IMG/VR virus record: IMGVR_UViG_3300018080_000526
Coordinates: 1-26,614 of that record
DNA from: a virus
DNA length: 26,614 nucleotides
Reading direction: 5' to 3' (one strand)
Shown here: in pieces, positions 6,821-26,614 of the stretch
Layout: every line of letters starts with the position of its first letter
Numbering within the stretch: the stretch's first letter is position 1
Notes under the pieces: model-generated
The model's database searches: none
What the model was told of the DNA's origin: nothing
Seen by the model: only the letters and a program-made list of their open reading frames with translations
Program-made: the position numbers and the translations under genes

Positions 6821-6831
6821 GGATGTATAAT

Positions 6832-7788
6832 ATGCTTGTTATCGCTGAGATAGGATCCAACTGGAAATCCCTCGATACGATTTTAAGATCGATCGACATG
6901 GCGAAATTATGTGGAGCGGATGCCGTCAAGCTTCAGCTGTACGACCATCAAAAGCTCTATGGATATAGGCGCCGGATGGCTGGATGCCTTGAACCTCACC
7001 ATGTTCAGCATGCGTCGGAAAGAGCTAGAGAGAATGGGCTGAAGTTCATCCTATCGGTTTTCGATCCGAATGACGTTTGGGAGGTGAGGAGCCACGTCGA
7101 TTATATAAAAATCGCATCTTCGAATAGCTCTGATGTCCTTCTGCTCCAGTCTGCTGCCGAGTGCGACAGGCCAATCATACTTTCTACAGGAGCATCTAGC
7201 ATATCGGATATCAGAAGATCCCTAGGCACGATTTCCAGCATTCGCAATGATGATATGGATACGACTCTCATGTATTGCGTGAGTTCTTATCCCTCCGTCG
7301 AAAATGATCTGTCGGTGATATCGCTCCTGAGGATAGAGTTCGGCCTTCCTGTGGGCCTGTCGGATCATTCGCTGGACGTGTTCAACTCTCCGGTTATTGC
7401 AAAGGATGTATACGGTTGCAGCATGATTGAGAAGCATTTCAAGATTTCAAACATGGGAACGCCTGATTCTGGACATTCCCTTGGCATGCATGACTTCGAG
7501 CGGATGACGAGGCGTCTTGCTTCAGGCATGCCTCGCGAGATGCCGAAGTGCGAAGGGGAAGAACACATGCTTTTGAAAAATAAAGTCAGGCTTGTTGCGA
7601 TCGATTCGATCGATCCAGGCGATACGTTTTCATATGGAAAAAATTTCGGAATTTTTCGCTCGAAAGAGCCTTGCGAAGATCCGATGTCACCATATGAATG
7701 GATGAGCGTAGATAACGCAAAATGCTGTGGATTTCTTTCCATAGGCGACTCGATAAGGCGTGTGCATGTAGAGGGCTTGAAAGATTGA
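6832..7788 (+). CDS. NeuB/PseI-type nonulosonic acid synthase
   Basis: The 318-residue protein matches sialic/pseudaminic/legionaminic acid synthases, which join phosphoenolpyruvate to a six-carbon amino sugar to make a nine-carbon acid. Visible motifs are VIAEIGSNW (3-11), GADAVKLQLYD (28-38), FILSVFDPND (72-81), YIKIASSN (91-98), RPIILSTG (113-120), MYCVSSYPS (147-155), GLSDHS (175-180), EKHF (200-203) and GHSLGMHDFERM (214-225). The last 70 residues form a SAF-like domain (FLSIGDSIRR), so the gene is complete. I chose the ATG at 6832 with GAGG nine bases upstream; an ATG at 6823 has none. Substrate class cannot be told from sequence alone. It lies between a virion gene and terminase, so it is expressed late. 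Confidence 0.9.
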   Translation: MLVIAEIGSNWKSLDTILRSIDMAKLCGADAVKLQLYDHQKLYGYRRRMAGCLEPHHVQHASERARENGLKFILSVFDPNDVWEVRSHVDYIKIASSNSSDVLLLQSAAECDRPIILSTGASSISDIRRSLGTISSIRNDDMDTTLMYCVSSYPSVENDLSVISLLRIEFGLPVGLSDHSLDVFNSPVIAKDVYGCSMIEKHFKISNMGTPDSGHSLGMHDFERMTRRLASGMPREMPKCEGEEHMLLKNKVRLVAIDSIDPGDTFSYGKNFGIFRSKEPCEDPMSPYEWMSVDNAKCCGFLSIGDSIRRVHVEGLKD

Positions 7789-12699: not shown

Positions 12700-13623
12700 A
12701 TGGCCGTATCGATAGATCAGTTGACTGCCATTACGCACAAGAAAATTCTACCACGTCTATATGACAACATTTTCGACAGCAATATTCTTCTCAAACGCAT
12801 GTTGAAAAGCGGACAATATGTCCCCATTGACGGAGGGGCAACCATCGACGTTCCTCTGAACTACGCAACAACCACAGCATCTGGCTGGTATCAGGGTGCC
12901 GAGACTCTTAGCACAACTGATAATGAGAATATCTCGGCTGCGCGCTATAACTGGAAGTCCGCATATGCGGGAATTTCCATCACTGAAGAGGACGAGCTGA
13001 AGAACTCTGGCAATGCCGGTGTTTTGAAGCTGCTCGCATCGAAAGCGATGATTGCCGAGAAAACCTTGAAGGATACTCTGGGAACCGGTCTATACAGTGA
13101 TGGGACTGACACAAAATCAATCGTCGGGCTGCGGGACATTTGTGCGACAGATCAGACTGTCGGAGGAATTTCGCAGGCAACCAACTCATGGTGGCAGGCT
13201 CAAGTCGATTCTACAAGCACGACTCTCACTATGTCTGTCCTTCAATCTCTGTACGAGGATGCCACCGTAGACGTCGAAAAACCGACGGTTGTGACCGCAA
13301 CTCGCGCGAACTACAACCGTTACTACAACCTTCTGCAGCCGCAGCAGCGGTTCACGGACGACATGACTGCGCGAGGAGGTTTTCAGAACCTCATGTTCAA
13401 CGGTGTACCTTTCGTGTCAGACAGCTATACGCCGGCGAATCATGTTTTTATGCTGAATGAAAAACACCTGTTCTTGTGGTATCAGCCGCAGCGAAATTTC
13501 AGCGCAGAAGCGTTTCAAAAGCCGATCAACCAGCAGGTTAAGGTCAGCAGGATCATTTGGATGGGTTCTTTTGGATCATCTAACAACAGGCTGCATGCCG
13601 CCGCTACAGCACTCGCTGCTTAA
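12700..13623 (+). CDS. Major capsid protein
   Basis: The 307-residue protein matches a family of phage major capsid proteins presumed to have the HK97 fold. It has MAVSIDQLTAITHKKILPRL at the N-terminus, then an IDVPLNYATTTASGWYQGAETL segment, then YAGISITEEDELKNSGNAGVLKLLASK, then IVGLRDI, a VTATRANYNRYYNL helix and a C-terminal IIWMGSF strand. The start is ATG 12700, seven bases after GGAGG. An upstream ATG at 12685 has no ribosome site. It lies between scaffold and decoration candidate, as expected. Confidence 0.9.
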   Translation: MAVSIDQLTAITHKKILPRLYDNIFDSNILLKRMLKSGQYVPIDGGATIDVPLNYATTTASGWYQGAETLSTTDNENISAARYNWKSAYAGISITEEDELKNSGNAGVLKLLASKAMIAEKTLKDTLGTGLYSDGTDTKSIVGLRDICATDQTVGGISQATNSWWQAQVDSTSTTLTMSVLQSLYEDATVDVEKPTVVTATRANYNRYYNLLQPQQRFTDDMTARGGFQNLMFNGVPFVSDSYTPANHVFMLNEKHLFLWYQPQRNFSAEAFQKPINQQVKVSRIIWMGSFGSSNNRLHAAATALAA

Positions 13624-13635
13624 GGAGGATCGAAA

Positions 13636-14145
13636 ATGACTTTTTATTCGCAGAACCCTGTTTTGTTTTATGGCATCTCGCATGTAACGGCTACTCTCAG
13701 CAGCAAGCATCCTGAAGTAGGTACAAGAATCACTCATGACGGTGAGGAATACGTTTGGGCATACCATGATTGCAATTCGGATATTGCTCCATCCTACATG
13801 GTACAGCTGCAGTCCGGAGCAACCGGCATGAGCGTGACTATCACCAACACGACGAATACGGGTCTTCCTGTCGGCATCGTCAAACATGCGACTCTCACAA
13901 CGAACACCTACGGATGGTTGCTCACGAGGGGTCACGCGACGGTCGAGATGACTGCGAACTCCGGAACCGTTGCTGTGAACGGATACCTGACCGTCGGTGC
14001 AAACGGAACAGCCGCTCCGTCATTGGTGCAGACAGCTCTCACTACAACCGATGGTGCGACCATCGAAACGATGCAGCCGATCGGGCAAGCTATGGCCGCG
14101 ATCGTTTCTTCGGCATCTGGCTCAGCGTATGTTTCACTTTATTGA
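13636..14145 (+). CDS. Capsid decoration or head-stabilising protein candidate
   Basis: The 169-residue protein starts 12 bases after the capsid stop, with TAAGGAGG, one of the strongest ribosome sites in the window, suggesting high expression. It is Thr/Gly/Ala-rich and beta-structured, with a hydrophobic, regular C-terminus (QPIGQAMAAIVSSASGSAYVSLY) typical of small head proteins. A gene at this position commonly encodes the capsid decoration protein. The many Thr/Ser residues, and the DUF115 gene that follows, make it a possible target for sugar attachment; this is inference. Confidence 0.6.
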   Translation: MTFYSQNPVLFYGISHVTATLSSKHPEVGTRITHDGEEYVWAYHDCNSDIAPSYMVQLQSGATGMSVTITNTTNTGLPVGIVKHATLTTNTYGWLLTRGHATVEMTANSGTVAVNGYLTVGANGTAAPSLVQTALTTTDGATIETMQPIGQAMAAIVSSASGSAYVSLY

Positions 14146-14166: not shown

Positions 14167-15186
14167 ATGGATGTGAGAAACATCATCGTCGAACTGAAAC
14201 CATATATACCTCACGCGCCAATTGCTGTAGGCGACGCTCACAGGAGGGCTTGCAGCAATGATCAGGTGACGATGGAAAAATGGACTGAGACATGGGTTTC
14301 CAACATTCGGGAAAATAAGAAGCGCTACTCTTCCTTTGCAGAGCATTCTGTTGGTTCACTATTTGGCACGTTCTCACCCAGACCTTGCATTATCGCAGGG
14401 TCTGGGCCTTCCTTAAAAAAGAGCATCGGCATGCTAAAGGATCGCCCTGAGGACATGCATCTTGTCTCATGCCTGCACAATTTCCACTACATGGAGGATC
14501 ATGAGGCAAATCCTGACTTTTATGTGTCGCTTGATGCCGGCGAAGTGACGATCGATGAGGTTTCCGAAGGTGGAAAACGGGATCCTGAAGAGTACTGGGA
14601 AATAACGAAAAATCGAAAACTTCTCTGCTATATCGGGACAAGCCCAAAGCTTCTTGAAAAATGGCAGGGCGAGGTCTTTTTTTTCAACGCACCCGTTCCG
14701 CACGATGATTTCAGAAGCCGTGTCCGCGAAATCGAGGATTTCAACGTCTGGGTTGAGTCCGGCGGGAACGTTTTAGGAGCCGCGACCATGATCGCGAAGG
14801 GCTTTCTCGGGAGCCAGATCAGCATATTCATTGGTTCAGATTTTTGTTTTTCAAATGAGGAAAAGCGCACCTTTCATTCCTGGGACTCAAAATATGATGC
14901 CGAGATGGGACAGTGCATCAGGGCTGTGGATATCTATGGGAATTCTGTCACAACATGGCCGAGCTATCTGAATTTCAAACTGTGGTTCGATTGCGTTGCT
15001 CAACGGATCCCTGGAATTTACATCAACAGCTCGTCACAAGGGTGCATGGGATCATACCCCGAGGGAAACATCCAGCAGATCGTACAAATGCCGCTGAAAA
15101 GCGCATATGAAATGTTTACTGTACACCATCATAAACGCAAGCAGGCTGAAGATCCTTCGCAGCCAAGCGATGTTGTTTATATTTAG
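14167..15186 (+). CDS. DUF115/Maf-like protein (putative nonulosonate glycosyltransferase)
   Basis: The 339-residue protein has the DUF115 core of motility accessory factor (Maf) and MptE-like proteins. PRPCIIAGSGPSLKKSI (71-87) is the nucleotide-sugar or phosphate loop. NPDFYVSLDAG (115-125) follows, then ESGGNVLGAATMIAKGF (197-213), and IFIGSDFCF (220-228) corresponds to the Maf 'GxDxx' strand. VDIYGNSVTTWPSYLNFKLWF near residues 255-275 matches the next Maf segment. In bacteria Maf proteins attach pseudaminic or legionaminic acid to flagellin Ser/Thr; MptE-like members act on pterins. The ATG at 14167 follows TTGGAGA. Its place in the middle of the head operon suggests virion proteins as acceptors. 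Confidence 0.75.
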   Translation: MDVRNIIVELKPYIPHAPIAVGDAHRRACSNDQVTMEKWTETWVSNIRENKKRYSSFAEHSVGSLFGTFSPRPCIIAGSGPSLKKSIGMLKDRPEDMHLVSCLHNFHYMEDHEANPDFYVSLDAGEVTIDEVSEGGKRDPEEYWEITKNRKLLCYIGTSPKLLEKWQGEVFFFNAPVPHDDFRSRVREIEDFNVWVESGGNVLGAATMIAKGFLGSQISIFIGSDFCFSNEEKRTFHSWDSKYDAEMGQCIRAVDIYGNSVTTWPSYLNFKLWFDCVAQRIPGIYINSSSQGCMGSYPEGNIQQIVQMPLKSAYEMFTVHHHKRKQAEDPSQPSDVVYI

Positions 15187-15195
15187 GAGAAGAAA

Positions 15196-15465
15196 ATGGC
15201 TTATACGACATCACTCATTGCCCAGACAGTTTTCGGAAACGAAAGAATCCAGCACTGGCGCTGGACAGCCGATGCTGCTACTGGGGTCGTCACGACTGGT
15301 CTTGACTACATCTACAACATCAACACAGCATGTCAATCATGCTCGACTGCTGCATTGAAGTTCGCGATCAACGAACTGTGCGCTGGAACAGCATCGGTCG
15401 GAAGCGTAGGAGTTTCCGGCGCAGCATCGGGTGATGAGGTGCTTGTCACAGTATACGGGAGGTAG
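15196..15465 (+). CDS. Small virion protein (89 residues)
   Basis: It has a strong AGGAGAA ribosome site 8 bases before the ATG. The product is Ala/Thr/Ser-rich and beta-like: MAYTTSLIAQTVFGNERIQHWRWTAD, then TGLDYIYNINTACQSC, ending EVLVTVYGR. Small proteins of this look follow capsid genes in tailed phages and are often in the virion. Function not assigned. Confidence 0.55.
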   Translation: MAYTTSLIAQTVFGNERIQHWRWTADAATGVVTTGLDYIYNINTACQSCSTAALKFAINELCAGTASVGSVGVSGAASGDEVLVTVYGR

Positions 15466-15468
15466 TTC

Positions 15469-15822
15469 ATGACTACTGTGGGACCGGTTCAGGCTTTTAG
15501 CGTGACGATTGCTTCAGCAGTCACCTATTCATCCGCAGTTGACCTTGGAGGAAGCCACGGAAACATCATGATCGGCATTCCGACCATGACAAGTGCCACG
15601 GACATATTCCCTTTGGTTTCAGACTCTGCTTCAGGAACATTCAGGCAGGTCTACAACGAAACGGTTGCGGCAACGACTACACCGACAGCCGTAAACTATG
15701 ACAGTTCAGTGACAAACTGCTATGTCCCACTGAATTGTTCAGCGAGATACATCAAGCTTGGGTACACCTCGGCAACAACCGAGGCATCCCAGACTTTCAA
15801 GTTTTTATGCGGAGCTAATTGA
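15469..15822 (+). CDS. Small beta-rich virion protein (117 residues)
   Basis: Starts 3 bases after the previous stop, with GGGAGG upstream. The product alternates polar and hydrophobic residues (VQAFSVTIASAVTYSSAVDLGG ... ARYIKLGYTS) and looks like a beta-sandwich. RYIKLGY near the C-terminus is the type of strand seen in phage head or tail outer proteins. No family named. Confidence 0.55.
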   Translation: MTTVGPVQAFSVTIASAVTYSSAVDLGGSHGNIMIGIPTMTSATDIFPLVSDSASGTFRQVYNETVAATTTPTAVNYDSSVTNCYVPLNCSARYIKLGYTSATTEASQTFKFLCGAN

Positions 15823-15823
15823 G

Positions 15824-16240
15824 ATGATTGACAACATGGTTCGTGTATACAACAGAAACGCATGGGATTTCAGCCAGCGATTCAAGGGCGATGATATTAA
15901 AATTCCGGCAAATTCGTTTATAAAGATGGATTATGACGAGGCTGTCATGTTTCTCGGATCCTATTCCGAAATGAAATATGACAAGGGTGGGATGCAGGAT
16001 CCGCGATCGTATAAATGGCTTGAGATTGATAAGGATGACAAGGAAAGGATCAGGCGTGACAGAGGCGTTTCTCCAGGAGAAGACAGCAAAACCTGGGACT
16101 GTCAATCATGCGGCAAAACTTTTCGGACCGAAAAAGGATACCTGAACCACATTAAGAGCAAGCATCTGGATGAAATGGTGGACAGCGAGAAGCGAGATGA
16201 GATACTTGACAACGATGACCTTGACGGGAGTGAAGAATGA
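15824..16240 (+). CDS. Phage head/neck protein with C2H2 zinc finger
   Basis: The ATG at 15824 follows the previous stop by 1 base and has GGAG upstream. Of 138 residues, 1-65 form a small beta domain (VRVYNRNAWDFSQRFKGDDIKIPANSFIKM, then EAVMFLG) seen in phage structural neighbourhoods. Residues 91-114 are a classical C2H2 zinc finger: C93, C96, H109 and H114 (C-X2-C-X12-H-X4-H) with F100 and L107 at the expected core places. The C-terminus is acidic. C2H2 fingers are rare in bacteria and phages. It may bind DNA at the portal or simply stabilise the fold. Confidence 0.65.
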   Translation: MIDNMVRVYNRNAWDFSQRFKGDDIKIPANSFIKMDYDEAVMFLGSYSEMKYDKGGMQDPRSYKWLEIDKDDKERIRRDRGVSPGEDSKTWDCQSCGKTFRTEKGYLNHIKSKHLDEMVDSEKRDEILDNDDLDGSEE

Positions 16241-16677
16241 AGTTGAAAGGTCGTTGGGCGATGACTCTATACGGTCCCGATAATGACATCAAGGAGTCCC
16301 GCGATGGAACCAATGTCATCACAGAGGACGGGACGAGCTTCATCGCTCAATTTCTTGTGAGTGCGGCTGCGGCTGCATCGACTTTTACGATGAACTATAT
16401 TGGAATTGGGACGGATTCGACAGCTGAAGCAAGCTCGAACACAGCCCTTGGGACAGAACTTGACAGGGCTGAAGCAACGATTTCCTTTATCTCCGGATCG
16501 ATCTATCAAGCCACGGCGACATTCGCTTGCGGCTCGACATCGGCGGGAGCGATCACCGAATACGGAATCTTTGATTCCACAACCGGCGGGACCATGCTCA
16601 ACCGTGATGTCGAGGCAACCATAAACAAGGGCGTCAATGACGATCTTGTAGTCGTGTGTCAGGTGACAGTGAGCTGA
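16237..16677 (+). CDS. Tail- or fibre-associated protein (146 residues)
   Basis: Overlaps the previous gene by ATGA. TMNYIGIGTDSTAEASSNTALGTELDRAEAT, then YQATATFACGSTSAGAITEYGIFDSTTGGTMLNR, resembles a family of small phage tail proteins I recognise by the pattern 'GTG... TAL.TE ... ITE.GIF....GGTML.R'. It should be a beta-rich virion component. There is no sign of an enzymatic site. Confidence 0.6.
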   Translation: MKLKGRWAMTLYGPDNDIKESRDGTNVITEDGTSFIAQFLVSAAAAASTFTMNYIGIGTDSTAEASSNTALGTELDRAEATISFISGSIYQATATFACGSTSAGAITEYGIFDSTTGGTMLNRDVEATINKGVNDDLVVVCQVTVS

Positions 16678-16696
16678 AACCCGCCATTTGGGCGAA

Positions 16697-17176
16697 ATGG
16701 CAAATTATTCTATAACAATCGGCAATACTTTCAACGTCTTCGGCGGAGGCAAAACCAACCGCTGGGGAGATTCCTATGGATCGGGCACGACACTGACATG
16801 GCAGTCAGCCGGAATCGCTACTCAATTCAATTTCTGGGGATCCCAGAATGATTTGGAAATCAGGGCAACAAAGCTCGTATCGAACGATCTGGACATGTCG
16901 TCGACTGTCGGAAAGGCTGTGACGAAACAGGTTGATGATGTTCTTGACATGACGTCAACTGTCGGAAAGATCCCGTACAAGGGCCTTTCGGATCAGCTGG
17001 CTGTTGCAACCACCATGTCGACCATCACAAAAATGATCGGAAATTGGACATACATATATCCAGACAATCAGACGAATTTCATCCAAAGAAGCATAGTTGA
17101 CTGGTCTGCCAATTCATCGGCAGAAACTACATGGGCGACGTCGGTCGCGGCCACAACATCATGGACGGAGGCTTGA
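16697..17176 (+). CDS. Structural protein with internal repeat (159 residues)
   Basis: The ATG at 16697 is chosen; a TTG at 16688 is in frame. The N-terminus (YSITIGNTFNVFGGGKTNRWGD) is beta-like. Two imperfect copies of a DLDM[ST]STVGK motif occur about 20 residues apart around residues 70-95, reflected in the DNA at 16888-16970. C-terminal SAETTWATSVAATTSWTEA is Thr/Ala-rich. Likely a virion component; function unknown. Confidence 0.5.
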   Translation: MANYSITIGNTFNVFGGGKTNRWGDSYGSGTTLTWQSAGIATQFNFWGSQNDLEIRATKLVSNDLDMSSTVGKAVTKQVDDVLDMTSTVGKIPYKGLSDQLAVATTMSTITKMIGNWTYIYPDNQTNFIQRSIVDWSANSSAETTWATSVAATTSWTEA

Positions 17177-17178
17177 AA

Positions 17179-17844
17179 ATGGCGCTGACCGTTGGAGACA
17201 TACAGGAAAGGGCTCGCGAAAGATATCATGCTACGGGCGACAAGTTTTTTTCAGATAAGATGCTTCGCGCACTGATTTTCTCAGCTCAGGACGAACTTGC
17301 GAAAGAGGGCTGGGTTATTGAAAAAACGCTCACAACTACGTCTACAGCATCAACGAGAACGTATGCTTGGCCTGAAAATACGTTGGCAATAAAGGAAGTC
17401 AGATACGACAACAATGCGCTTCAAAAGCGGACGCTGAAGGACGATCCGAAAACATCGACGTCCGATCCGACCGGGACGCCAAGAGAGTACGCCGTTTGGG
17501 ACGAGGAAATCATCCTGTATCCGACACCGGACACGACTGGCGACACCGTTCAGATAAGGACTTATGCATATCCGCAGGACATATCAACCAACACGACTCC
17601 GCTAGAAGTACCTCAGGAATACCGTGACGATCTTATCAATTTTGTTTTGGCCGAGATGGCTCTCAAGGATCAGAACACAGTCATGGCGGACAGGTATGCT
17701 ATGAAATGGAACGACTCTGTTGAAAAATCCAGGCAGCAGCGGATGAAGAGGCTCCGTGCAGACAGGCCGGCGAGGGTTCGCGACACATATTTCGGCTCCG
17801 ATTCAATTCCCAATGTCGATGAGGTTTTTTATCGTGGTTTCTAA
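17179..17844 (+). CDS. Head-tail adaptor (connector) protein
   Basis: The 221-residue protein starts at ATG 17179 after CGGAGG. An all-helical N-terminus (GDIQERARERYH ... LRALIFSAQDELAKEGWVIE) and a beta insertion with RTYAWPENTLAIKEVRYDN and YAVWDEEIILYPTPD are visible. A long C-terminal helix set follows (INFVLAEMALKDQNTVMADRYAMKWNDSVEKS). This is the architecture of phage adaptor proteins that sit under the portal of podoviruses. The end overlaps the nozzle gene by 11 bases, which fits co-assembly. Confidence 0.7.
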   Translation: MALTVGDIQERARERYHATGDKFFSDKMLRALIFSAQDELAKEGWVIEKTLTTTSTASTRTYAWPENTLAIKEVRYDNNALQKRTLKDDPKTSTSDPTGTPREYAVWDEEIILYPTPDTTGDTVQIRTYAYPQDISTNTTPLEVPQEYRDDLINFVLAEMALKDQNTVMADRYAMKWNDSVEKSRQQRMKRLRADRPARVRDTYFGSDSIPNVDEVFYRGF

Positions 17845-19738
17845 ATCTACTGTTGTTTATCCTGAACGCGGAAGGATCGGGCTCGATGGAGGTCTGAACA
17901 ACAAGTTTGACAGGCAGTGGATCTTGGAAAACGAGACTCCGGATTGCCAGAATGTCATATTCGGCCAGAATTCCGTCGAGACACGAGGAGGAACATCACT
18001 TCTCAACACTGCTCCAGTCGGATCCTTCATATGCGACGGACTTTATGTCCGGCACGATTCATCCGGCGCTGAAACGATGGTCGGATGGTGGGACGGAACT
18101 CTGTACGATCTTCAGGGAACATCATTCATCTCAGTGACCTCGGCGAAATGCATTTTCACAGCTGGCGTAAAAGTTCATTCGACGGAATACGAGAACTACC
18201 GATTCTTTACGAACGGATCGAACCCCATGTACAAATGGAACGGTTCGGAGTTCACGCGAGGTTCAGTCCCGGCTCCAGATTCAACTATGACGGCAGCAAC
18301 GGCGCCTACAGGAACAGCTTTGTCCGGTGTCTATAGCTATAAGGTCACATACGTCAACAGCAATCTGGTCGAATCGGACGTCTCGCCGGTTTCGAATACG
18401 ATCACGGTTGCATCTCAGGATGTCAGGCTGACATCGATCCCGGTTGCTCCGGCATCATTTGGTGTGAACAGCAGAAGGCTGTACAGAACTGAGGACGGAG
18501 GATCGTCATATCTCAGACTTGCGACCATATCCGATAACACTACAACTACATACGACGATGGCATTGCGGACGCATCGCTTGGCGTGGAGGCGCCGACGGA
18601 TCAAGGCGAGATTCCGACGACGGCGACATCGCTCATATTTCATCAAGGCAGGATTTTCTGCATCGACACGGCTGACAATCTTGTCAAATACTCTGAAATC
18701 GGAAACCCATATGTTTTCAAGGCGACGAGTTTCAGGCGTCCGGGAGATACAAGCGGAGACATTCCAAAAGCTCTCGGTATTTACGAAAACAGCGTGTTCG
18801 TTGGATGTGTTCGATCTAACTGGCTCATATACATGCCGGATGCAGATGATACGAACTGGGTTGATATCCGGATAAAGTCTCCATACGGTTGCAAGAGCCC
18901 GTTCGGACTGTTCAACTACAACAACAGGCTCATGTTTCCGGCGATGGAAAACGGAAAATTTGTCGGATTCGCTGCGATCGCTGGAGCGACAGTTGAGCCA
19001 ACGACGACTCTTCTGACTGTTTCAGCAGCCGGATCGGATCTTAAGTCCAACGTGATTTCTGAAGATATGGACATGATCCCGGAATCAAGAGTCCCGAACA
19101 TATCCGCTGTTGTTTTTGGGAAAAACGCATATATAGCTGCGACATATGAATCAGGATCGACAAACAACAGGATATATTTATTCGACTATTCGTTCGAAAA
19201 TCTGTCTAAGAAGCAGGAGTTCGCATGGTCGAGATGGACAGGCCTGAATCCTGCTCATTTTGTCGTATACGACGGAAAACTATATCATGCGTCCGATGAT
19301 GATGTCGGAAGCGTGTACCTGATGAACACCACGACTTACAACGATTCAGGCACTGCGATAGATTCCTACTACTGGACAAAAGATTTTTCAGGAAAGCCAG
19401 GGCATGAAAACATGTCGAAGGATTTTCGATGGATTTCCATCCTTCACGAGCAATCCGGCGACTACTACATGACTCTGACAAAACGAATAGACTCGACCGG
19501 AGGCGTAGGATCCACAGATCAAATCGATTTGGATCCGATAACTTCCGTATGGGGAACCATGCGCTGGGAAGAAGACGAATGGTCCGCCGGAGGCGAGCAG
19601 ACAGAATCAAGAATCAGTCTCGGTGATCTTGCGGTCGCTAAAAGGATCCAGCTCAAGTTCGACAATCAAAACGCAATCAATCAGAAATTCAAAATAATCG
19701 GCATCAACCTTGAGTACAATATAAGGGGGAGACGTTAA
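17834..19738 (+). CDS. Podovirus tail nozzle / stabilisation-like protein
   Basis: Taking GTG 17834 (GAGG nine bases upstream) gives 634 residues; ATGs at 17813 and 17819 are alternatives. The N-terminus GRIGLDGGLNNKFDRQWILENETPDCQNVIF, then SVETRGGTSLLN, matches large podovirus tail proteins of the nozzle or P22 gp10-like type. The body reads as repeated beta-propeller-like blades (LIFHQGRIFCID, NSVFVGCVRSNWLIYM, GLFNYNNRLMFPAMENGKFVGFA, VVYDGKLYHAS). A fibronectin-like insert, SGVYSYKVTYVNSNLVESDVSPVS, is near residues 170-195. Position directly after the adaptor supports a tail-end role. Confidence 0.7.
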   Translation: MVSKSTVVYPERGRIGLDGGLNNKFDRQWILENETPDCQNVIFGQNSVETRGGTSLLNTAPVGSFICDGLYVRHDSSGAETMVGWWDGTLYDLQGTSFISVTSAKCIFTAGVKVHSTEYENYRFFTNGSNPMYKWNGSEFTRGSVPAPDSTMTAATAPTGTALSGVYSYKVTYVNSNLVESDVSPVSNTITVASQDVRLTSIPVAPASFGVNSRRLYRTEDGGSSYLRLATISDNTTTTYDDGIADASLGVEAPTDQGEIPTTATSLIFHQGRIFCIDTADNLVKYSEIGNPYVFKATSFRRPGDTSGDIPKALGIYENSVFVGCVRSNWLIYMPDADDTNWVDIRIKSPYGCKSPFGLFNYNNRLMFPAMENGKFVGFAAIAGATVEPTTTLLTVSAAGSDLKSNVISEDMDMIPESRVPNISAVVFGKNAYIAATYESGSTNNRIYLFDYSFENLSKKQEFAWSRWTGLNPAHFVVYDGKLYHASDDDVGSVYLMNTTTYNDSGTAIDSYYWTKDFSGKPGHENMSKDFRWISILHEQSGDYYMTLTKRIDSTGGVGSTDQIDLDPITSVWGTMRWEEDEWSAGGEQTESRISLGDLAVAKRIQLKFDNQNAINQKFKIIGINLEYNIRGRR

Positions 19739-22177: not shown

Positions 22178-23937
22178 TGGGCAAGCTCAACCAGGCTGAT
22201 GTTCAGGCGCTCGACATCCTCGTGTCCGGGACTGAGGACGAGGATACGAACCTTGCAATCCGCGACAAGCTCGGTCTGAATGACGATGACATCCGTGCAT
22301 ATTCGGAATCGCGTAATGTAGATCCCGAGATTGCTGAAGCAGTGCAGACAAAAATCTATGACAAGATACGATCCCAGAAAGACCGTACTGGCATTACGCA
22401 AGAGCGTGCAATCTGGGAGGGTCTGAAGCAGGGCGTGACGTTCAAATGGTCGGATGAGATTGAATCATCATGGGATACTATGAAGGAGTATTTTTCCAAG
22501 GGCGGTGACTATAGCGAAATATATGAACGGAAGGTCAAAAAAAAGCGCGAAGACATCAAGGCTCTGGAAAAGAGATATCCTCTCAACTTTATTGCCTCTG
22601 AGATCATTGGAGGGCTTGCGGTTCCTATTCCCGGAGCGAGCCTAAAGTCGGCTGCGACGCTTGGGAAACTGGCACTCGAATCCGCTGCGACGGCAGCAGG
22701 AGCAGCGGACGCTCCAGTCATGTCCGGTAAATTTCTTGAGCAGACTGCGGCCGGAACGGCGATCGGCGTCGCAGGAGGAGCCCTGCTTGGAGGAGTCGCG
22801 AAAGGAGCGTCCAAGCTGGTCGAAAAGGGCGCCAGTCCTACAAAAAAAGCTGCGATGGCTGTCAGCAACATCCTTTTTGATCTTCCTCCAGCCTATACGG
22901 AGAGGCTGTTGGATCCTCGGACTGCCAAGAAAATTCTTGATCCGAAAAGCCCGGAGCAGATAGTCGACACGATCGAGGATCTTGTATCCAGGATGTCTGA
23001 TGATGCGGAAGCCTTGAGCATGAAGGCCCAGAGCTTTTTATCAAGAAAGTTTGATATCGACACGAACAGAATCGTGAGGGATCTGAATGATCTTCCTTCA
23101 ATGAACAGGATCGAGCGCAGCACTATGGGAGAAGCGGAAGCTGCGAAGAAAGAACTGGATAGGTCGATGGCCGACTTACTCAACAGATCGAAAGATGGAA
23201 TGATATCCGAGAAAAACCTGAAGCAGTTCATACAGGATATCGATCTGGAAATTCCGTGGAACAAGAACGAATGGAAACTTAAGGACAGGATCCTTTCTGA
23301 AATACGTGCAGAGGTTGACAACTATGTTCTGAAGGGCGGAAATAAGAAGTATGCAGAGGCGATGATCCCAGTCGCTGAAATCATGCGGAACAGGGCAGAA
23401 ATTTCAAAATCATTCTCTCTCAAGAGGAAGGGATATAAGGCTGTTCCGACCGATGCGACTTTTTCTAAAGTCAGGAATTTCTACAACGTTGCTGGGAAAT
23501 CGAAAAAGCCTGTCAGCGAGAAGGCCCTTGCGAAGGCGGATGAACGATATGGAAAATCCATATTGGAAGACATTGAGATAGGGCAAATTGCTGCAAGAAC
23601 CGAGGGCGGCATGGCCGCAGGATCGAAAAACGTCCTTCTTGGGCTTGCCATGGGAAGCATGTTCGGTGCGTCAATTTGGGGAGCTGTTGCTGGCGCTGTA
23701 AAGGACAAGTATGGCCGGAAACTTGGGAAGCAGTTTATTCCAAAACTTGAGAAATCGATAAAATTTTCTGACGACAAGATTGAAGAAATGTTCGATGTGA
23801 TCGATCCGAAGATCGTCGAGCGTGTTTTGCAGACATATGGGCGTTTCGCAGGATCTGAAAAGGGCGTCGAGGGAGTTCAGGCGCCAAGGCCGACATCGAT
23901 AATTCCAATTCAACAGCCATCTTTTGGAGGACGATAA
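22177..23937 (+). CDS. Large internal/ejection protein with hydrophobic segments (586 residues)
   Basis: Overlaps the previous stop by one base (TGATGG). An N-terminal acidic helical part (1-65) is followed by a region with RAIWEGLKQGVTFKWSDEIES, which is seen near the start of some phage virion proteins. Hydrophobic Gly/Ala segments lie near residues 132-145 (FIASEIIGGLAVPIPG), 180-205 (AAGTAIGVAGGALLGGVAKGA) and 483-510 (VLLGLAMGSMFGASIWGAVAGAV). The middle is charged helix. Multiple membrane-active segments in a large soluble-type protein suit an ejection protein that inserts into the host envelope. No lytic transglycosylase motif was seen. Confidence 0.6.
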   Translation: MGKLNQADVQALDILVSGTEDEDTNLAIRDKLGLNDDDIRAYSESRNVDPEIAEAVQTKIYDKIRSQKDRTGITQERAIWEGLKQGVTFKWSDEIESSWDTMKEYFSKGGDYSEIYERKVKKKREDIKALEKRYPLNFIASEIIGGLAVPIPGASLKSAATLGKLALESAATAAGAADAPVMSGKFLEQTAAGTAIGVAGGALLGGVAKGASKLVEKGASPTKKAAMAVSNILFDLPPAYTERLLDPRTAKKILDPKSPEQIVDTIEDLVSRMSDDAEALSMKAQSFLSRKFDIDTNRIVRDLNDLPSMNRIERSTMGEAEAAKKELDRSMADLLNRSKDGMISEKNLKQFIQDIDLEIPWNKNEWKLKDRILSEIRAEVDNYVLKGGNKKYAEAMIPVAEIMRNRAEISKSFSLKRKGYKAVPTDATFSKVRNFYNVAGKSKKPVSEKALAKADERYGKSILEDIEIGQIAARTEGGMAAGSKNVLLGLAMGSMFGASIWGAVAGAVKDKYGRKLGKQFIPKLEKSIKFSDDKIEEMFDVIDPKIVERVLQTYGRFAGSEKGVEGVQAPRPTSIIPIQQPSFGGR

Positions 23938-25136
23938 TGTCAAACATAACAGTAACATATTCATTTACGAACGGCACATCGGCTGACGCGGATCAGGTCA
24001 ACCAGAATTTCACAGATATCTTGAACGGCCTTTCGGATGGAACTAAGGATATCTCGATATCCGCCATGACATGCGCGGGAACGGTGACATTGAACGGAAA
24101 CACGACCATAGGAAACGCCGCTACAGACACCATAACTGTGACAGGCAGGGTTTCCAGTGATGTATACCCTATTGCAAACAGCACTTATGATCTGGGATCA
24201 AGCTCGCTTTACTGGGCTGAATCCTACGTCACCACGCACTATATCGGCAGCAATGTCAGCATAAACGGGACATCTCCAGCTGCTAAAATCCATATACAGG
24301 GTTTGAACGGAGTTGAGAACGGTCTTCTCATATCGGGCGTGTCAGGAGATACATCCGGTGACGGCTATCATATCGGGTACGATTCGTCGAACAACTGCAG
24401 GGTATGGACAAAAGATGGGAACAACATCCTGATCGGCGTCGAAAACGTTGAAAAAGTCAAGTTTACGACGACAGCGATGACAATAAACGATCTTGGAAAC
24501 GACTATGATGTCATAATGAAAAGCAATAACGATGCAAACATGTTCTACCTCAATGGAGGCGACGACAGGATCGGAATAGGTACAAACCCGTCTGCAAAAT
24601 TTCATGTCCTTGAGAGCGTTGACAGTGCCGTTGCGGCGAAAATTGAGCAGACCGATGCTGACAACCCGTATGGTCTGAACATCGATTTTTCAGCAGGATC
24701 GCCGGATGACAATACGAGATGGTTTTTGGCCTGCGAGGATTCAACTGCGTCGCGATGCATCATTTACAGCGATGGGGACGTGTGGACGTCTGATGCTGGA
24801 ACATTGACATCAGATAAATCCTTCAAGGACAATATTGTCGACACAGAGCCTCAGAAGTCACGTCTCATGGGTCTTCGTGTGAGAAATTTCAAATGGAAGA
24901 AATCTTTTCATCCGAAGAAGGACAAGAAAAAGAATATCGGCTTCATCGCTCAGGAATTCGAAAGCCATTTTCCGGAATTCGTTTGCGAGGCGGAAATGAA
25001 GGTTGATGGCGAAAAAGTCGTGAAGAAGGGTATAAAATATACCGCCCTGGTTCCTGTGATCGTAAAGGCTTTGCAGGAGCAGGAAGATGATTTGACAGCG
25101 ATACGGGAAAGGCTTGATGCACTCGAGGCTTCTTGA
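23937..25136 (+). CDS. Tail fibre/spike with self-cleaving Peptidase_S74 chaperone
   Basis: The 399-residue protein begins with a short N-terminal module (SFTNGTSADADQVNQNFTDILNGL) common in phage fibres. A beta-rich shaft follows (TLNGNTTIGNAATDTITVTGRVSSDVYP, then IGIGTNPSAKFHV). From Ser292 onward it is a Peptidase_S74 intramolecular chaperone: SDKSFKDNI with the Ser292-Lys297 dyad, LMGLRVRNFKWKK, IGFIAQEFESHFPEFV, and YTALVPVIVKALQEQ ending in a coiled coil. Such domains drive trimer folding and cut themselves off just before the serine. This is probably the receptor-binding protein, although short. It is the last gene before the terminator at 25161. Confidence 0.8.
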   Translation: MSNITVTYSFTNGTSADADQVNQNFTDILNGLSDGTKDISISAMTCAGTVTLNGNTTIGNAATDTITVTGRVSSDVYPIANSTYDLGSSSLYWAESYVTTHYIGSNVSINGTSPAAKIHIQGLNGVENGLLISGVSGDTSGDGYHIGYDSSNNCRVWTKDGNNILIGVENVEKVKFTTTAMTINDLGNDYDVIMKSNNDANMFYLNGGDDRIGIGTNPSAKFHVLESVDSAVAAKIEQTDADNPYGLNIDFSAGSPDDNTRWFLACEDSTASRCIIYSDGDVWTSDAGTLTSDKSFKDNIVDTEPQKSRLMGLRVRNFKWKKSFHPKKDKKKNIGFIAQEFESHFPEFVCEAEMKVDGEKVVKKGIKYTALVPVIVKALQEQEDDLTAIRERLDALEAS

Positions 25137-25236: not shown

Positions 25237-25530
25237 ATGGATATTTGGTTTTTTATCAGTATTATTATGGCGATTCTGCTAATAGCATCAGTATCTTTCT
25301 CAATAATAATTTTTAGGCAATATATCAATATAAAATCTGAATTGATCCAAGAATCCCTGAATTGCAAATCTCTAATAAAAGAACTCGGGAAAGTGAAGGA
25401 ACGGCCCAAATCGGTTGAGCTGAAGGAATTTCTGGGTGATTTGATGAGGGGAGATGCTCTCATTTCGGTACATCGAATCGATGGTGCCGACATGTTTTCG
25501 TTCAGCCCAAAAGATAAGGGTATGCTATGA
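25237..25530 (+). CDS. Small membrane-anchored protein (97 residues)
   Basis: From ATG 25237 the protein has one strong membrane helix (WFFISIIMAILLIASVSFSIIIF, residues 4-26), then a helical, charged linker, then a small domain SVELKEFLGDLMRGDALISVHRIDGADMFSFSP at the C-terminus. A family of phage proteins with a similar 'EFL.DL..GDALI.V.RID...F..SP' end is familiar to me, but without function. An i-spanin-like role is conceivable from its layout; the C-terminal domain argues against it. No clear ribosome site; TTG 25222 is an alternative. Its stop overlaps the next start by ATGA. Confidence 0.55.
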   Translation: MDIWFFISIIMAILLIASVSFSIIIFRQYINIKSELIQESLNCKSLIKELGKVKERPKSVELKEFLGDLMRGDALISVHRIDGADMFSFSPKDKGML

Positions 25531-26363
25531 AATTTTTGATTGTTGGCGGGACTGGGACGCTTGGAAAAGAACTTATCAGGCGCTTTTATGACGATCATGA
25601 AATCGATGTTTTGAGCCGCGACGAGTTCAAGCAGGCCGCTTTGAGAAAGGTATACCCCAAAGCAGGATTTATTCTTGGAGACATCAGGGACTGGGTTCAA
25701 ATGAGCCCGATTTGCTATTCGCAGTATGACGCCGTTTTCCACTGCGCCGCTCTGAAACACGTCGATATAGGCGAAAGCAACGTCTCCCAGTTCGTTCAGA
25801 CGAATTATAATGGGACAGTCAACCTTGCAAAAAAATGCAAGGGGAAATCGAAACTCGTTTTTTTCTCAACAGACAAAGCAGTCCTTCCCATCAATGTGTA
25901 TGGAATGTCAAAAGCCCTTGGGGAAAGATATATCCAGAGCACTGATCCTGAGGCTGTGATCTTCAGGTGGGGGAATATTCTTGGATCAAGAGGATCGATC
26001 CTCGATTTTTTCGCGCAGCGGATTCAAGCAGGATCGACTGTTCCTATAACTGACATGCGGATGACTCGGTTCTGGCTCACGATAAACGAGGCGATCGATT
26101 ATGTCATGAAAAACTGGCAGAAGGGTATATCAAGAAATCCTCTCATACCTCCCGTGAAAAGCGCGTCTGTCGTCGATGTCGCCAAGGCGATAGGAGCGAT
26201 TTTAGGAAAGCCTGTAAAGATGAAGGAAATCGGAATCAGGCCTGGAGAGAAACTGCATGAGACTCTCAAGCATGATGCGAACTTCAGCCTGTCGTCGGAT
26301 ACATGCGAAAAGTTCGAAATGGATGAACTCATTGTAAAAATACGGCAGGTAATGAAGGAGTGA
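25527..26363 (+). CDS. PseB/CapD-type UDP-sugar 4,6-dehydratase (SDR)
   Basis: The 278-residue protein is a short-chain dehydrogenase of the PseB/FlaA1/CapD type, which converts UDP-GlcNAc to a 4-keto-6-deoxy sugar, the first step to pseudaminic and some legionaminic acids. GGTGTLGKE (7-15) binds NADP. SRDEFKQ (30-36), GDIRD (51-55) and HCAALKHVDIGESN (72-85) are family marks. STDKAVLPINVYGMSK (114-129) carries the PseB-type catalytic set D116, K117, Y125 and K129. MTRFW (179-183) is also diagnostic. It is about 50 residues shorter than typical PseB. Starts with ATGA overlap after the membrane protein; followed by an oxidoreductase 3 bases on. Confidence 0.87.
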   Translation: MKFLIVGGTGTLGKELIRRFYDDHEIDVLSRDEFKQAALRKVYPKAGFILGDIRDWVQMSPICYSQYDAVFHCAALKHVDIGESNVSQFVQTNYNGTVNLAKKCKGKSKLVFFSTDKAVLPINVYGMSKALGERYIQSTDPEAVIFRWGNILGSRGSILDFFAQRIQAGSTVPITDMRMTRFWLTINEAIDYVMKNWQKGISRNPLIPPVKSASVVDVAKAIGAILGKPVKMKEIGIRPGEKLHETLKHDANFSLSSDTCEKFEMDELIVKIRQVMKE

Positions 26364-26366
26364 TGC

Positions 26367-26614
26367 ATGATAGACATGCCGAGATACAATAAAAATGGAT
26401 CTGTGCTAGTTGTTGGCGGCAATGGGAACATGGGTCAGAGATATTGCAGGATCCTGTCAATGCTCAATGAAAAATGGCATAGCATAGATGTCGGCGAAAA
26501 CATTGGGACTGAGGCTTTTCATACCGGCATTAAGGGCGTAATAATCGCTACGCCAACTCAAAACCATATCAAATGTTGCTTTGATTATTTGAAATATCCG
26601 ATTTTGTGCGAAAA
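26367..26614 (+). CDS. Gfo/Idh/MocA-type oxidoreductase, N-terminal part
   Basis: The ATG at 26367 has GAAGGAG six bases upstream and the frame is open to the window end (82 codons). GSVLVVGGNGNMGQRYCRIL (11-30) is an NAD(P)-binding Rossmann loop. VIIATPTQNHIKCCFDYL, then LCEK at the edge, is the strand-helix-LCEK signature of Gfo/Idh/MocA sugar oxidoreductases. Such enzymes occur in nonulosonate and other surface-sugar clusters. Substrate unknown. The rest of the gene lies outside the window. Confidence 0.75.
   Translation, partial: MIDMPRYNKNGSVLVVGGNGNMGQRYCRILSMLNEKWHSIDVGENIGTEAFHTGIKGVIIATPTQNHIKCCFDYLKYPILCE

Follow-up and report, generated by a model that had tools for sequence, protein, structure and literature searches.

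The gene for a DUF115 protein is a core head gene of an uncultured phage lineage, in which genes of a nonulosonate pathway accompany it in almost every long record. A small relative of the Maf enzymes that modify bacterial flagella always lies in the capsid block; combined with sugar genes of the phage's own almost throughout, this makes it probable that the virions carry a sialic-acid-like sugar attached by the phage itself. With a probability of about two in three, we read the genes as a phage-dedicated nonulosonate O-glycosylation system, in which a CMP-nonulosonate would be made during infection and attached by the DUF115 protein to the phage's own virion proteins in the host cytoplasm.

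What we propose is a module for nonulosonate glycosylation that is present throughout a phage lineage and uses a minimal Maf-like enzyme. In the literature on phage Maf/MptE-like proteins, phage nonulosonate pathways and glycosylated virions, covered for the most part outside subscription papers, we found no description of such a system. Few cases of virion glycosylation are known in tailed phages. For mycobacteriophages it was reportedly described by Freeman et al. in 2023 (as cited in PMC10955285); the likeness lies in glycan-bearing phage particles, which for the window lineage are proposed. The mycobacteriophage case involves other glycosyltransferases and sugars and is not known to combine a nonulosonate pathway with an enzyme like Maf. 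If our reading is true, virion glycosylation would characterise an entire uncultured lineage that owns a sialic-acid-like sugar pathway and has its transferase locked into the capsid operon, and Maf-type O-glycosylation would extend from flagella to virus particles. It would also make a minimal single-domain Maf-like enzyme available for mechanistic work and glyco-engineering and allow a direct test of the role of phage surface sugars in assembly, stability, diffusion, shielding or host binding.

The window, the whole stretch of DNA analysed here, is the 26,614-nt (26.6-kb) virus record IMGVR_UViG_3300018080_000526, positions 1-26,614, and its contig end falls inside the sugar cassette. Genes for a P22-like portal, a terminase, a capsid protein, an SU10-type adaptor and an S74 tail fibre identify a tailed phage, and this set makes a podovirus most likely. 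Positions 803-2474 and 4561-5064 hold an Exonuclease VIII/RecT-like recombination pair and an ERCC4-type nuclease. Neither tblastn of the DUF115 protein against 50,697 phage records nor that of a relative against 72,556 plasmids gave a match, so these searches provide no cultured relative or host link for the lineage. A scan of GTDB genomes returned a single 3.5-kb MAG contig, which is phage-like in itself and thus gives no host assignment.

A Maf-like fold in a single-domain protein

The reading frame of the preliminary description (14167..15186, plus strand) is borne out: it starts with an ATG at 14167 behind a ribosome-binding-like GGAG, its stop codon ends at 15186, and it encodes 339 aa. 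Promoter and terminator scans around the gene gave no more than the level of shuffled sequence. The product, a proposed CMP-nonulosonate:protein transferase, matches PF01973 (MptE-like/MAF_flag10) at 4e-22 and 79.2 bits (cut-off 34.6). Its AlphaFold2 model has a pLDDT of 90.9 and a pTM of 0.90. The preliminary description had suggested comparing a predicted structure with Maf and MptE, and on this model the fold is Maf/sialyltransferase-like: Foldseek ranks the Maf crystal structure 5mu5 first (E 3.5e-9), ahead of archaeal MptE 8sd5 (2e-5), and these are followed by the human CMP-sialic-acid transferases ST8SiaIII and ST6GALNAC2 (8e-4 to 0.05). By sequence, a phmmer search of the PDB with the single protein found no match; a profile of 23 phage homologues reaches 5mu5 at 2.6e-4 as the only relevant PDB match. 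Largely invariant stretches include GSGPSL, LDAG, EGG, GGNVLGA, GADF and FHxWDSKYD, and the invariant columns take in the glycine-rich loops that characterise the transferase fold.

The DUF115 protein is Maf-like, but it is not a Maf. Like Maf/PseD, it has the central MAF_flag10 domain (PF01973) and the 5mu5 fold, it is accompanied by genes for NeuB/PseI and a CMP-sugar synthetase, and its gene lies beside that of a candidate acceptor made in bulk. In contrast to Maf/PseD with 600+ aa, it consists of a single PF01973 core, to which about 0.30 of 5mu5 corresponds when the TM-score is normalised to that target. Maf enzymes have three domains, including an N-terminal degenerate Rossmann domain and a C-terminal helical bundle (PMC11339370), and both of these are missing here. 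Against the NCBIfam PseD model the protein scores only 16 bits at a cut-off of 670, and at every locus its gene has those for the capsid, the decoration protein and small virion proteins as neighbours, not one for flagellin. The idea of a virus-specific version of flagellin glycosylation is supported by the Maf-like fold, the donor pathway and the fixed place in the head operon; without the flanking Maf domains, it does not hold in the strict sense of a Maf enzyme.

The fold similarity to the CMP-sialic-acid transferases is weaker but consistent, and the proposed donor is of the same kind, while a sequence relation is undetectable and the acceptors of these enzymes are glycans. C. jejuni Cst-II has been compared with Maf in the literature (PMC11339370). 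BFVD contains MptE-like proteins, for example A0A0F7L3H2 and A0A6J5PG89, that come from a marine virus and from uncultured Caudovirales and have the DUF115 fold (Foldseek 7e-13 to 4e-8), with 12-16% identity to our protein and lengths of 400-714 aa for several of them.

The name MptE-like for PF01973 and the second rank of MptE, which has this fold in common with the DUF115 protein, would fit a 6-hydroxymethyl-dihydropterin diphosphokinase. The Maf match is better by about four orders of magnitude, the sole relevant PDB sequence match is a Maf, and among the genes annotated in the genomes we noticed none for pterins, although almost all of these genomes have nonulosonate genes. Given the order of the fold matches and the gene content, we set this activity aside as highly improbable.

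A fixed place in the head operon

The preliminary description placed the gene between the capsid and Thr-rich decoration genes on one side and small virion genes on the other, and this setting recurs throughout the lineage. The major capsid protein (12700..13623, plus strand; phrog_9953, PHROG major head protein, 1e-57) has a start at 12700 that agrees with its relatives. We gathered related loci by this protein, so that the sample is independent of DUF115. In a first set, window excluded, the DUF115 gene is present in all 30 loci that cover the site; three of these are cut within DUF115, some are near-identical, and one further locus (L031) stops inside the capsid gene. It is also present in 39/39 further capsid-selected loci in which 1.3 kb or more of sequence follows the capsid gene. 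Across these 69 loci, with capsid identities down to 49%, it always lies between the decoration gene and a small virion gene. Loci selected by DUF115, in part from the same records, have a capsid or decoration gene upstream in 74/74 cases and the same small gene downstream in 77/78. Given its presence in every covering capsid-selected locus, the arrangement is not due to chance. Over 27 long records, DUF115 and the capsid protein are conserved alike, with median identities of 51% and 53%. In a Bradyrhizobium phage and a Manatee Spring phage, both distantly related by their capsids, no DUF115 gene is annotated beside the capsid gene, so the trait looks lineage-specific.

This constancy bears on the question of whether the host is the target. 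The phage might re-decorate a surface glycan or the flagellin of its host, for example to block superinfection or change motility, and the head operon would then serve for late expression only. It is well established that some phages change the host surface with glycosyltransferases of their own (cited as well in PMC10955285), and flagellin is the known acceptor of Maf (PMC11339370). On the other side, the DUF115 gene never leaves its place in the 69 loci and is conserved as strongly as the capsid gene. Host-modification genes are usually variable and mobile. Superinfection exclusion would also be poorly served by late expression, and we regard a host target as unlikely.

Two irregularities were seen in other genes of the relatives. 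The major capsid gene is present as two ORFs in L026:8220-9399, L025:9600-10779 and L063:1254 onward, which are about 230 bases apart in L025 and L026; an intron, an insertion or a frameshift is possible. The terminase ORF has about 760 aa in L036:11072-13348 (genome G004) and L040:6869-9154 (genome G008) versus about 440 in relatives, possibly owing to an intein or another insertion.

A probable nonulosonate donor pathway and its exceptions

The preliminary description had suggested co-expression with a CMP-nonulosonate as a check, and the same phages encode a near-complete pathway for such a donor. Three of its genes, all on the plus strand, are in the window and had no part in that description. 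The first encodes a NeuB/PseI-like nonulosonate synthase (6823..7788) directly before the terminase gene; it matches PF03102 at 2.7e-39 and TIGR03586 PseI at 1.8e-36, and its family profile reaches pseudaminic acid synthase 8h2c in the PDB at 3.7e-53. The second encodes a PseB-like UDP-GlcNAc 4,6-dehydratase (25527..26363; PF02719 5.6e-64, TIGR03589 8.2e-59) that keeps the conserved TDK...Y...K motif. The third is the 5' part of a Gfo/Idh/MocA-like oxidoreductase gene (26367..26614; local family HMM 6e-22), cut by the contig end, whose complete relatives match PF01408. The scores of all the Pse-type enzymes fall under the NCBIfam equivalog cut-offs. The cassette follows the tail fibre gene, and the window's copy ends past PseB. 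Directly upstream of it, the tail fibre (23937-25136) has a C-terminal Peptidase_S74 domain of the endosialidase-type chaperone kind.

In longer relatives, the Gfo/Idh-type gene is followed by genes for a cytidylyltransferase (PF02348), a class-III aminotransferase (PF00202) and a GNAT acetyltransferase that matches PseH at 5e-19. The cytidylyltransferase gene of the window, if present, lies past the contig end. Twenty-six related records have a length of 33 kb or more; they were chosen by capsid or DUF115 and are thus not biased toward sugar genes. NeuB is found in 24 of them and the CMP-sugar cytidylyltransferase in 25. The natural product of NeuB together with a CMP-sugar synthetase is a nonulosonate.

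These enzymes suggest a route to a nonulosonic acid activated with CMP. Nonulosonic acids are nine-carbon sugars that resemble sialic acid, and the one made here would be of the pseudaminic or legionaminic type. The PseB-like dehydratase, the class-III aminotransferase and the PseH-like GNAT would yield a di-amino sugar precursor, which NeuB/PseI would condense with phosphoenolpyruvate before the cytidylyltransferase charges the product with CMP. The DUF115 protein, as a minimal single-domain Maf-like transferase, would then move the nonulosonate to Ser/Thr residues of capsid-operon proteins. Such a cytosolic O-linked transfer would be an analogue of flagellin O-glycosylation by Maf enzymes, which place nonulosonates on surface-exposed Ser/Thr of flagellin (PMC11339370).

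The phages resemble the Pse and B. subtilis Sps legionaminic pathways in having PseB-, PseH- and PseI/NeuB-like enzymes and a cytidylyltransferase; the B. subtilis set comprises SpsM, C, D, G, E and F (PMC7439481). They differ from both in their class-III (GSA-type) aminotransferase and the extra Gfo/Idh-like gene. An aminotransferase of the PseC/SpsC type (PF01041) was found in 0/13 records searched, and the class-III enzyme, which has only generic matches of 20-31% among plasmids and phages, is present instead. No PseG/SpsG-type hydrolase was identified in these phages, so that from the full set of PseB, PseC, PseH, PseG, PseI and PseF only PseB-, PseH-, PseI- and PseF-like enzymes were found.

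Two genomes provide the strongest evidence against a simple glycosylation model. In G032, a record of 35.8 kb, four pathway enzymes (NeuB, PseB, GNAT and the cytidylyltransferase) have been lost, and a remnant is left of the class-III aminotransferase gene (G032:28140-29090, equal to L143:8140-9090) in which Ala replaces the PLP lysine; the DUF115 protein of G032 keeps all 85 conserved columns. G040 (L208-L209) keeps PseB, cytidylyltransferase, aminotransferase and GNAT and has no NeuB. A short NeuB of 248 aa is found in G006 and G008. For G032 and G040, either the missing steps are supplied by the host or DUF115 has an added assembly role.

The latter leads to a reading in which DUF115 descends from a transferase and retains the catalytic fold, and serves mainly in head assembly or as a structural factor; its essential role would be binding of the decoration or capsid protein, and glycosylation would be secondary or host-fed. 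Universal presence, capsid-like conservation and the intact DUF115 protein of G032 fit such a factor. Retention of NeuB in 24 of the 26 long records and transferase-type glycine-rich loops among the invariant columns argue against it, as does the divergence pattern described below, and we consider a mainly structural role unlikely. More tentatively, and with less than even odds, heads of this lineage could assemble only after nonulosonate O-glycosylation by the minimal Maf-like enzyme, much as formation of the flagellar filament depends on glycosylated flagellin; the phages would for this reason carry their own donor pathway, and the transferase would belong to the capsid operon as firmly as the capsid gene does.

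Covariation and candidate acceptors

Covariation was determined from pairwise divergence in 16-25 genomes, with background virion genes regressed out. The divergence of DUF115 tracks that of NeuB (0.49-0.52), the aminotransferase (0.46-0.49) and the cytidylyltransferase (0.41-0.43) with permutation p of 0.001-0.002. Without four records, the short-NeuB ones among them, the values are 0.47, 0.41 and 0.28 (p 0.001, 0.005 and 0.047, respectively). Beyond background, DUF115 does not covary with the capsid protein, with the decoration protein or with the small gene directly downstream. DUF115 thus diverges with the sugar enzymes and not with the capsid or decoration protein, against the expectation for an assembly factor; covariation with the sugar enzymes is as expected if donor specificity shapes DUF115. 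Since distances are saturated, genomes few and tests many, we take the covariation as suggestive: it would connect DUF115 with the sugar and not with the neighbouring genes, and the decoration protein does not stand out in it as the acceptor.

Under the glycosylation reading, the most likely acceptors would be the decoration protein on the capsid surface, small fibre-like proteins from the capsid operon, or both. The Thr-rich candidate decoration/cement protein (13636..14145, plus strand, as are the genes below; 16% Thr) has an AlphaFold2 model with pLDDT 79.5, for which Foldseek finds the base of the phi29 head-fibre protein gp8.5 and decoration proteins of HFTV1, Pam3, T1 and TW1, with a weaker match to lambda-type decoration proteins. 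The preliminary description named the capsid or decoration protein as a possible acceptor. Position and Ser/Thr content keep both plausible, and the missing covariation beyond background speaks against them.

Further candidates lie downstream. The 89-aa conserved virion-operon protein next to DUF115 in 77/78 loci (15196..15465) has a median Ser+Thr content of 20%, and the small Ser/Thr-rich protein behind it (15469..15822; phrog_5707 1e-5) one of 21%. The Ser/Thr-rich gp80-fibre-like protein (16237..16677; phrog_5417 3e-17; PF23140 8e-5, under its cut-off) covaries with DUF115 at 0.36 and with NeuB at 0.30. For the protein at 16688..17176, whose median Ser+Thr content of 25% is the top of the set, the values are 0.30 with DUF115 and 0.52 with NeuB. 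Several further virion proteins equal the decoration and capsid proteins in Ser/Thr richness, and Ser+Thr reaches about 15-25% in most capsid-operon and tail proteins versus about 10% in most of the remaining phage proteins. This content fits acceptors, but it is weak evidence, since a high share of Ser and Thr is common in beta-rich virion proteins. The large protein at 17756-19738 and those at 16237, 16688 and 19738 likewise track the sugar genes beyond background, which makes the products of 17756-19738, 16688-17176 and 16237-16677 alternative acceptor candidates.
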